Shown: positions 6,110 to 27,577 of the stretch, one piece after another
Layout of the letters: each line of letters starts with the position of its first letter
Position numbering within the stretch: the stretch's first letter is position 1
The notes under the pieces: model-generated
What the model was told of the DNA's origin: nothing
What the model saw: the letters and a program-made list of their open reading frames with translations, nothing else
Databases searched by the model: none
Translations under genes and position numbers: made by a program
DNA from: Methanothermococcus okinawensis IH1
Lineage (GTDB): Archaea; AGJL01; Methanococci; Methanococcales; Methanococcaceae
Assembly: GCF_000179575.2 (NCBI RefSeq)
Contig: NC_015636.1
Coordinates: 372,001 to 436,000 of the forward strand
Reading direction: 5' to 3'
Length of the DNA: 64,000 nucleotides

Positions 6110-6330
6110 CTCGGGATTTAAAAGCATCCTTTAAAAATCTCAAAATTCACTTCGTGAATTCGAAGCGAATCCTTTGGATTCGCTGACTTACAAAACCTTG
6201 AAAAGGTTTTGTCAAGTTATACGATGCCGTAGGCAGTAAAAAATCCGTAGGATTTTTTCTGACTTCTCGCTATCGCTCGAAAAAGATGCTACCTAAAATA
6301 ACCTCGCTTCGCTTCGGTTGGAACCTAAAT
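6110..6330. repeat. Cluster of about seven modular hairpins beside tRNA-Arg
   Basis: Successive perfect or near-perfect hairpins: AATTCAC/GTGAATT; GCGAATCC/GGATTCGC; CAAAACC/GGTTTTG; TGCC/GGCA; AAAAAATCC/GGATTTTTT; a short CGCTATCGCTCG unit; and CCGAAGCGAAGCGAGG. The linker CTGACTT occurs twice. Bases 6159-6218 are nearly the same as a stretch inside the transposase at 26723-26780, and the right end matches the element at 1416-1480 in inverted order. No coding potential is seen. The cluster ends 14 bp from tRNA-Arg. Confidence 0.75.
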
Positions 6331-6343
6331 ATATATAAAAATA

Positions 6344-6418
6344 CGAGCCCGGAGGGATTTGAACCCTCGATCCCGGGGTCCGAAGCCCCGTATTCTATCC
6401 AGGCTAAACTACGGGCCC
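6344..6418 (-). tRNA. tRNA-Arg(UCG)
   Basis: On the minus strand the acceptor GGGCCCG pairs with CGGGCTC (one G-T pair). The anticodon stem CGGGG/CCCCG closes the loop CTTCGGA (anticodon TCG). The T arm is GAGGG-TTCAAAT-CCCTC and the discriminator G. The hairpin cluster lies at its 3' side. Confidence 0.93.
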
Positions 6419-26432: not shown

Positions 26433-27577
26433 TTACGGTATTCCTCTCTTTATTAGTTCTTTACTACACGATTTAACCACTTCATAAAATGATAAACCAT
26501 ATTTATGGCTTAAATATTCTATGCAATTTGAAACTATTGCTAAAAATCTAATAAACCCTATATTACTATTTTTAGATGTTAAATAGTTCCCTTCAATTTT
26601 TAAAACTGATTTATCCCTTTGATGCTTTTCTTCTATCATAGGTCTCTTGATATATTCCCCTATTATATTTTCTGCCTTCTTTTTATGGTCTATACATACC
26701 AAATACTTGGGTTCCTCCTGGTTTCGAAGCGAATCTGAAAGATTCGCTGACTTACAAAAACCCCTTGGGTTTTTGTTAAGTTTCATTAGCACTGCAACGA
26801 TTTTAACCCTACCTACATTAGGGATATTAACCACTTTATGATATAGTTTAACTTCTGTTTCGTTAATTGTCCTTAATTTAAACTTATTTTCTTCCAAATC
26901 CTTCTTAAATAGTTTTTCTATTTGGACTTTCTTACCAAAATACTCAACTATGATGTTTTTCTTAATTTTCCCAATGTAACATAGACCCAATTTCTTAGAC
27001 TCCTTCATAACATCCTTTGTAGTTATAAAAGCGTCTCCTATTACCGTCCTGATATCGGTGTTGGATAAGAACCCAAGAATATCTATAAATATATTTGTAG
27101 ATTTTTTGTTTAAAGGTTTTGTTGTAGTATAAATTGAGTATATCCCTTTTTATTATGATAAATACAGCAATTTATTTGTTCTTGATATAATTTTCTATGT
27201 TCTTCGATGTAATTATATCTAATAATACATCCATAAACCTTTTCACTCCATCTCCTTATGAATGTTGAATCAATTATTGCAGTGAATTTAAACCTTTTAT
27301 CATTCAAGATATCGGGAAGGCTTGCTAATTGGTTATATACGCAAATCTCATTTTTTGATAGTTTTTGAATGTTTTTGATGATGGTAGTTCTGTGGATTTT
27401 TGAAATACTCTCTGAAAATGCTTTAATGGTCTTTATTGGGGTTAGCACTCTAACCTGTGCAAACCTGGATAACTCATCTGAACAGTTAAATCCTAAACTA
27501 TTTATAGAATTAGTGAGTACATTATTAAGTGTTTCTAACCTGTTATCACTAAACTTTTTTATTTGAGTATATTGCTT
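26433..27577 (-). pseudogene. IS4-like DDE transposase, frameshifted
   Basis: The open frame from 27577 has no good start codon above GTG 27448. AIIDSTFIRRW holds the first Asp, TVIGDAFITT the second, and YIKRPMIEEKHQRDK fits the Y(2)R(3)E(6)K signature of IS4-type transposases. A frame break at the T5 run 27147-27151 (AAAAAGGG on the coding strand) needs one more base, or a -1 ribosomal slip at AAA AAG. An in-frame hairpin insertion (26723-26780) adds about 20 residues between the second Asp and the YREK motif. Probably inactive. Confidence 0.75.
26723..26780. repeat. Modular hairpin element inserted in the transposase frame
   Basis: GCGAATC/GATTCGC and ACAAAAACCC/GGGTTTTTGT hairpins joined by CTGACTT. 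The stems and linker match 6159-6218 while the loops differ. The reading frame stays open through it, giving NKNPRGFCKSANLSDSLRN in the transposase. This resembles the palindromic elements known to sit within Rickettsia genes. Confidence 0.75.

Follow-up and report, generated by a model that had tools for sequence, protein, structure and literature searches.

The hairpin cluster at 6110-6330 of the window (the whole stretch of 64,000 nucleotides analysed here, i.e., positions 372001-436000 of the larger of the two contigs, 1,662,525 and 14,930 bp, of the Methanothermococcus okinawensis genome) is an A-B unit that resides at a tRNA-Arg gene and carries module C and further modules nested within the loop of its hairpin B. 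As the best explanation, to which we give an even chance, two kinds of non-autonomous mobile elements are suggested, the first (the A-B unit) being inserted by tail priming and the second (modules C and D) with a 2-bp duplication. The original prediction, made from the sequence alone, had described modular hairpins joined by conserved linkers at 6110-6330, 1416-1480 and 26723-26780, and its interpretation was supported and sharpened by the work described here. At all three sites coordinates and words match the sequence: CTGACTT is present twice within 6110-6330, the linker GATGCTAC locates to 6285-6292 and GTAGCATC to the inside of the 1416 site, and the third word, TTTAGGTTCCAA, is the reverse complement of 6318-6329 with the variant TTTAGGCTCCAA at 1416. 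The recurring grammar holds insofar as 1416 and 26723 each share one module with the 6110 cluster, but the modules differ and none is common to 1416 and 26723. Likewise, the conserved linkers turned out to be of mixed origin, some being element termini and some duplicated target DNA. Compared with dinucleotide shuffles, folding was strong for 6112-6250 (z = -5.5) and 26720-26785 (z = -5.7), with 0 of 200 shuffles as good in either case, and weaker for 1405-1500 (z = -2.3), while 6230-6335 taken alone was not significant (z = -0.4), its outer stem pairing with 6121-6129.

The A-B unit comprises about 75 nt and two hairpins, following the formula TTAGGTTCC - hairpin A - TTTTGATG - hairpin B. In the orientation of the tRNA gene, a simple unit consists of TTTTTAGGYTCC and hairpin A, then CTTTTGATG or CTTTGGGTA and hairpin B, and finally a repeat of the host gene end. 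The simple unit of the window resides on the plus strand, where its host, tRNA-Gly(TCC), was identified by ARAGORN at 1312-1386 with its 3' end (1365-1388) constituting the target copy T1. The left end TTTTTAGGCTCC was located by sequence to 1413-1424, hairpin A (CCAAAAC...GTTTTGG) by folding, alignment and sequence to 1423-1447 and hairpin B (GCATCC...GGATGC) by folding and alignment to 1458-1477, the hit of covariance model R1 covering 1410-1487 (E 7e-19). Directly after hairpin B the tRNA-Gly 3' end GTTCAAATCCCGACTGGCGCATTT recurs as GTTTGAATCCCGACTGGCGCATTT, the target copy T2 (1478-1501), 22 of its 24 positions being identical and both changes (C>T, A>G) falling within the 7-nt tail. Hence the element runs past 1480, where the original prediction had ended it, and this near-exact repeat is its key feature. 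Within the alignment of 79 matches, double changes were found at 13 of the 16 stem pairs and 99.5% of the cells are paired; the alignment was fitted to the model and so favours pairing, yet not by this margin, as slid controls were 41-52% paired. Changes in these stems amount to 225 double versus 4 single ones, and as RNA helices normally pass through G.U, the near absence of such intermediates points to DNA hairpins or to palindrome correction. As a further variant of the unit, a third hairpin (CGAAATCTTTGATTTCG...) was observed between A and B at loci of M. okinawensis and of genome G029.

A genome-wide search for further copies, which the original prediction had set as its own test, was carried out with the window cluster as BLAST query and returned 47 matches at E <= 10, some 25 of which had an E value under 0.01. 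The matches include two more copies that are nearly complete (identities of 94% and 90%), a shorter one and numerous partial ones. The covariance model that had been proposed alongside was made from nine simple A-B units (R1) and gave 19 hits in M. okinawensis, the copy numbers stated being those of these searches. Extending the model search to the phylum brought up the same 36 genomes. In total, hits were obtained in 22 of the 36 Methanococcales genomes and in five of five genera, where single weak hits near E = 0.01 may be chance; 39 were counted in G035 (presumably Methanotorris igneus), 12 in G004 (presumably Methanocaldococcus jannaschii), and 15 each in G001 and G029. The proposed single class of small palindromic repeats therefore stands as to small hairpin repeats with copies in all five genera, but has to be divided into two mobile families plus composites. 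Rfam holds no family for these elements, the search returning tRNAs, CRISPR repeats and one sub-threshold chance match; no description of the A-B unit or of module C was found in the open-access papers searched, a body that leaves out most subscription papers, which renders the term undescribed, used in the original prediction, likely to be correct. Viral contigs, phages and plasmids gave no match. In a Methanococcus genome (G020) the copies inspected are B-only and tandem, with about 70 bp of the gene start repeated. Several A-B units of G035 were observed at the ends of CRISPR arrays, where they repeat part of the CRISPR repeat, and G005 and G010 have in common a pair of inverted A-B units that are separated by about 100 bp and lie next to a tRNA gene.

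The link to tRNA genes, the mapping of which had been proposed as well, is strong. In M. okinawensis, 10 of the 16 A-B loci (including two, Arg and Leu-GAG, added from BLAST) lie directly 3' of a tRNA gene, i.e., within 120 bp and on the same strand, versus 0.13% expected, and 10 of the 37 tRNA genes possess a unit. Local repeats of the tRNA end similar to that of tRNA-Gly were identified at Thr, Met, Val, Ser, Leu and Arg. Downstream of the tRNA-Ser gene three identical 132-bp units are arranged in tandem, each with the tRNA 3' end, a recent expansion that could differ among strains. Outside tRNA genes, repeated targets include two gene 3' ends (that of atpD and, in G029, that of hisF), the beginning of an rsmA-like gene and, in G035, CRISPR repeats. 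The duplication varies in length from about 20 to 100 bp. When the flanks of 87 A-B elements were compared with a null of mismatched flank pairs, repeats exceeded the 95% null in 54 and the 99% null in 37, the 33 elements with no clear duplication being either decayed or the product of a different outcome. T1 often stops a few nucleotides before the left end of the unit, with a filler of 0-19 nt in between.

The suspected mobility was confirmed by the comparison of filled and empty sites at orthologous genes. At atpD, element and repeat are present in M. okinawensis only and the gene end is single-copy in 10 relatives; at hisF the element is restricted to G029, the gene end being single-copy in M. 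okinawensis and nine others. G029 carries a unit at tRNA-Pro and at tRNA-Glu, two sites where M. okinawensis has none, while tRNA-Gly(GCC) is filled in G029 and in M. okinawensis the unit sits at the neighbouring tRNA-Gly(TCC). Therefore, A-B units insert, and the repeat arrives with the insertion.

In the 49 elements whose repeat could be read, the right target copy begins exactly at the base of hairpin B, as T1 and T2 disagree in 65-84% at positions before the hairpin B end and in 12% at position 0. From here, positions 0-6 of the target follow the motif N T T N R A A, with R at +4 in 28 and A at +6 in 27 of the 31 distinct cases; this motif corresponds to the T-loop GTTCRAA in tRNAs and is represented by GTTGAAA, AATCAGA and the like in other targets. 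T2 was found to be changed against T1 chiefly at +3 to +5. The tail changes of the 31 distinct target/tail pairs comprise 30 C>T or A>G versus 6 T>C or G>A (p 7e-5), whereas beyond the tail the same change classes are balanced (17:16; Fisher p 0.009 for tail versus further along), and leaving aside indel cases the tail counts are 23 versus 2, plus five A>T or A>C and one C>G. When Watson-Crick and wobble pairs are considered, 93% of the tail positions are able to pair with the target strand, versus 65% for shuffled tails, and position 0 of the tail equals the local target in 96% versus 32% for shuffled pairs, by which a fixed, element-borne 7-nt terminus was rejected. Tails are G/T-rich and end in RA. 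The idea that the tail lengthens hairpin B by pairing with the TTTT upstream was considered by eye and discarded, being inconsistent among variants.

The tail GTTTGAA is common to nearly all simple units at GTTCAAA tRNAs in M. okinawensis and G029, the exception being tRNA-Ser (GTTCAAA), and this suggests that elements take their tail along when they move. Deamination of an exposed strand would give the same signature of C>T and A>G, but the shared tail makes this less likely. For insertions outside tRNA genes nearly all tails differ, hence no fixed guide is seen there and a diverse pool or error-prone copying must be assumed. Lagging-strand polarity around the origin, addressed by a circular two-arc test in six genomes (p = 0.04, 0.36, 0.90, 0.96, 0.98 and 1.0), was not supported, and therefore no strand specificity is claimed for A-B insertion.

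The composite cluster locates to the minus strand. Its host, tRNA-Arg(TCG), was identified by ARAGORN at 6344-6418, with the 3' end as T1, followed by the left end TTTAGGTTCC (6320-6329, from sequence), a partly decayed hairpin A (AACC...GGTT; 6300-6319, from sequence; R1 hit 6250-6334, E 2e-4) and, by comparison of copies and sequence, the 5' arm of hairpin B (GGTAGCATC; 6285-6293). Within the B loop reside module F (CGAGCGATAGCGAG; 6266-6279), which together with module E was the first insertion, E-F occurring alone in G029 C63; module D (about 40 nt, two hairpins, TC duplication; 6223-6262, by comparison of copies); module C (the 55-bp double hairpin with its AA duplication; 6162-6217, by folding and alignment, and absent at tRNA-Leu(GAG)); and module E (AATTCACGAAGTGAATT; 6144-6160, by comparison of copies and sequence). 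The 3' arm of hairpin B (GGATGC; 6124-6129) and the decayed target copy T2 of tRNA-Arg (TTTTAAATCCCGAG; 6110-6123), both assigned from sequence and comparison of copies, complete the cluster. The recombination-assembled look pointed out in the original prediction is due to nested insertions, of which partial intermediates exist: G029 C63 is a hairpin B with E-F in its loop and no module D, tRNA-Leu(GAG) adds D, and both D and C are present in the window copy, in two other M. okinawensis copies and in two copies of a genome we take to be M. aeolicus. At a CRISPR-side locus D is found alone in M. aeolicus and is absent at the M. okinawensis counterpart. The window cluster would thus have been formed by insertion of A-B at tRNA-Arg, with E-F, D and C subsequently inserting one into another in the B loop.

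Module C, a 55-bp double hairpin of the form CTTGAC...GTAAGTCAG...CTTCG, inserts with a 2-bp duplication, adding 57 bp net, and hence keeps the reading frame. In leuS of G029 exactly 57 bp, corresponding to 19 residues, were added between AA and AA; LeuS is free of module C in the other Methanococcales genomes with a match, M. okinawensis being empty at the DNA level. The site at 26723-26780 of the window (minus strand; sequence and folding) is a module C in frame within a transposase ORF (26433-27008, minus strand), where it encodes LNKNPRGFCKSANLSDSLRN. The respective IS is present in seven copies in M. okinawensis, and its homologues in G034 and G001 are empty. In G034 this transposase has 66 matches, mostly broken pieces, which represent a decayed IS burst. 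Module C was further identified inside an O-methyltransferase gene of G004 and G034, and it is read in the same frame each time, yielding the peptide L[DN][KE]N..xF.KSAN..[DN]SLR. Double changes occur at 9 of its 23 stem pairs, 98.6% of the cells are paired, and all letters but the first of its linker AAGTCAG are invariant. Module D, as a two-hairpin module of about 40 nt with a 2-bp duplication, is similar to module C. Outside of Methanococcales, isolated matches to the module C pattern were obtained in a Bacteroidales MAG and in two haloarchaea; all three are probably chance. Genome G033 possesses long hairpin chains with common linkers (GAGTC, TCGA) and stems with a conserved one- or two-base bulge, which look like a burst of module C relatives.

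Based on these findings, we infer a mechanism for A-B insertion in which the unit would move as a single-stranded molecule that ends in hairpin B followed by a 3' tail, G/T-rich and about 7 nt long. This tail may anneal to one strand of a T-loop-like target (NTTNRAA), G.T or G.U wobble pairs included, and would then be extended by a polymerase. The upstream strand would be synthesised past the site and joined to the 5' end of A-B, whereby 20-100 bp of the target would come to lie on both sides, the enzyme being presumably supplied in trans. Such tail priming accounts for a right junction that is fixed, for the wobble changes, for repeats of variable length and for survival at gene ends. tRNA genes would be hit most since every T-loop carries GTTCRAA and since the tRNA 3' end is rebuilt once the duplication exceeds about 18 bp; insertions at gene termini would be accounted for in the same way. 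To our knowledge, the pattern of A-B insertion matches no known mobile element. We tentatively suggest, with less than even confidence, a new mode of transposition in which a 3' tail finds T-loop-like sites by wobble pairing and primes insertion while the gene end is regenerated; host replication and repair enzymes may suffice for it.

Part of the same evidence would also be expected if hairpins merely provoked replication slippage or template switching, i.e., if at a stalled fork the nascent strand gained hairpin sequence and re-annealed upstream, with no dedicated mobility involved. The variable duplication length, the filler at the left junction and the perfect stems almost free of G.U, which palindrome correction would leave behind, are in line with this idea, as are the tandem arrays at tRNA-Ser and at tRNA-Ile of M. 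aeolicus. However, unguided slippage is not expected to deliver one and the same unit every time, in a constant orientation relative to the repeat and with its right junction at the hairpin B base at one motif, and unequal recombination that follows insertion accounts well for the arrays, so that slippage is considered rather doubtful. Unlikely, too, is that the elements are the non-autonomous kin of a transposon (ssDNA/HUH, tyrosine-recombinase or DDE) that was lost or has yet to be discovered, with a loose, wide stagger giving the duplication and the changed 7 nt being the element terminus. The structured ends with a conserved bulge (module C), the REP-like behaviour and the presence/absence polymorphism agree with such a relationship, but terminal inverted repeats are absent, the Y1 transposase (PF01797), found in control genomes, is absent from the M. 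okinawensis genome, and an element-borne terminus fails to explain why position 0 of the tail equals the local target. We know of no DDE enzymes making duplications of about 20-100 bp, and HUH elements, as far as we know, make none.

SINE-like retroposition by target-primed reverse transcription would typically give variable long duplications, and the C>T and A>G changes could then be traces of C-to-U and A-to-I conversion by RNA editing or deamination (e.g., inosine at tRNA position 57), as +3, +4 and +5 are T-loop positions 56-58. This route is deemed very improbable, as no reverse transcriptase match (PF00078) was obtained in 35 of the 36 Methanococcales genomes, M. okinawensis included, the A-B stems are free of G.U pairs, the same base changes occur at protein genes, and the shared tail GTTTGAA fits inheritance better than repeated independent editing. 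The sole reverse transcriptase match among the 36 genomes locates to G033:C1:26095-26718, within an open frame of 1116 aa. Ordinary functional structures 3' of tRNA genes, such as transcription terminators or RNA regulators, would account for the TTTT after hairpin A, for the position and for the paired changes that keep the stems; yet most tRNA genes do without them, orthologous tRNAs differ in their presence, the elements also reside at gene starts and (module C) inside coding frames, and a terminator needs no duplicated gene end, hence a functional role of this kind is highly improbable and, as a sufficient explanation, ruled out by the insertion evidence. That plasmids or viruses integrated at the 3' ends of tRNA genes and left these elements as remnants, with the repeats as att sites, has a next to negligible probability, since, although such repeats are classic for archaeal integration and the T-loop is a common crossover, the same unit of about 75 nt lies between the repeats at many different tRNAs, the repeats often continue past the tRNA for tens of bp of local sequence, plasmids, phages and viral contigs gave no match, and A-B units at atpD, hisF and other protein-gene ends rule integrase scars out as a general explanation.

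Tail priming remaining the preferred reading, the elements can be set against known systems. Being small, non-coding, hairpin-forming, non-autonomous and multi-copy, A-B units resemble REP/BIME, ERIC, RUP and NEMIS repeats (review PMC10969869); in the passages of this review that were consulted, no MITE from Methanococcales is listed. They differ from REP/BIME and MITE-like repeats, as no terminal inverted repeats, no 2-9 bp duplication and no REP-associated Y1 transposase in the genome were found. The A-B ends (TTAGGTTCC and GTTGC + tail) are not inverted repeats, the hairpins being internal; a short duplication of fixed length is seen for modules C and D (2 bp) and not for A-B, and none of the copies inspected was a larger A-B version with an ORF. 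The variable-length duplication is a feature A-B shares with retroposons and SINEs, whose reverse transcriptase has no counterpart in M. okinawensis. The E. coli tyrT distal repeats are 178 bp long and carry 19 bp of the tRNA-Tyr 3' end. Like these, A-B arrays consist of tandem units downstream of a tRNA gene, each with a copy of the tRNA 3' end, but the tyrT repeats are confined to one locus and have no hairpin family, whereas A-B units occur at many tRNAs and at protein genes with locus-specific repeats. With SSV-type integrase elements and casposons A-B units share the targeting and duplication of tRNA 3' ends, but they are too short for an integrase or Cas1 gene, their duplication is variable and protein genes are targeted, too.

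Module C behaves like the Rickettsia palindromic elements (RPE; as summarised in PMC10969869), being a small palindrome that resides in frame in unrelated genes, is read in one frame with a common peptide and is missing from the LeuS orthologs. The likeness is one of behaviour. Module C has 55-57 bp instead of about 150 bp, is a double hairpin, has an archaeal host and inserts in other repeats as well. In having two hairpins and a conserved linker, and in being mobile, nested, intergenic and genic, it is also similar to the mitochondrial double-hairpin elements and repetitive hairpin-forming elements (e.g., PMC2800124, PMC5910586). This is a resemblance only, with module C residing on an archaeal chromosome and not in an organelle. 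For the mitochondrial elements we know of no long target duplications at a T-loop motif as found for A-B. Small mobile hairpins are thus a known kind, while long duplications that arise at T-loop-like sites and involve a wobble-paired tail are, to our present knowledge, new.

Little is known of small mobile repeats in archaea, and the A-B family spans Methanococcales, including the genome taken to be that of the model archaeon M. jannaschii. The hairpin elements give a concrete origin for tRNA 3'-end fragments beside archaeal tRNA genes, for repeated gene ends and for short additional peptides within conserved enzymes, LeuS being an example. As an archaeal counterpart to the mitochondrial double-hairpin elements and the RPEs, they suggest that selfish hairpins arise repeatedly. 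If tail-guided insertion holds true, DNA would be inserted without excision of a long element, the target would be picked by base pairing and the gene that is hit would be regenerated, which could be useful.
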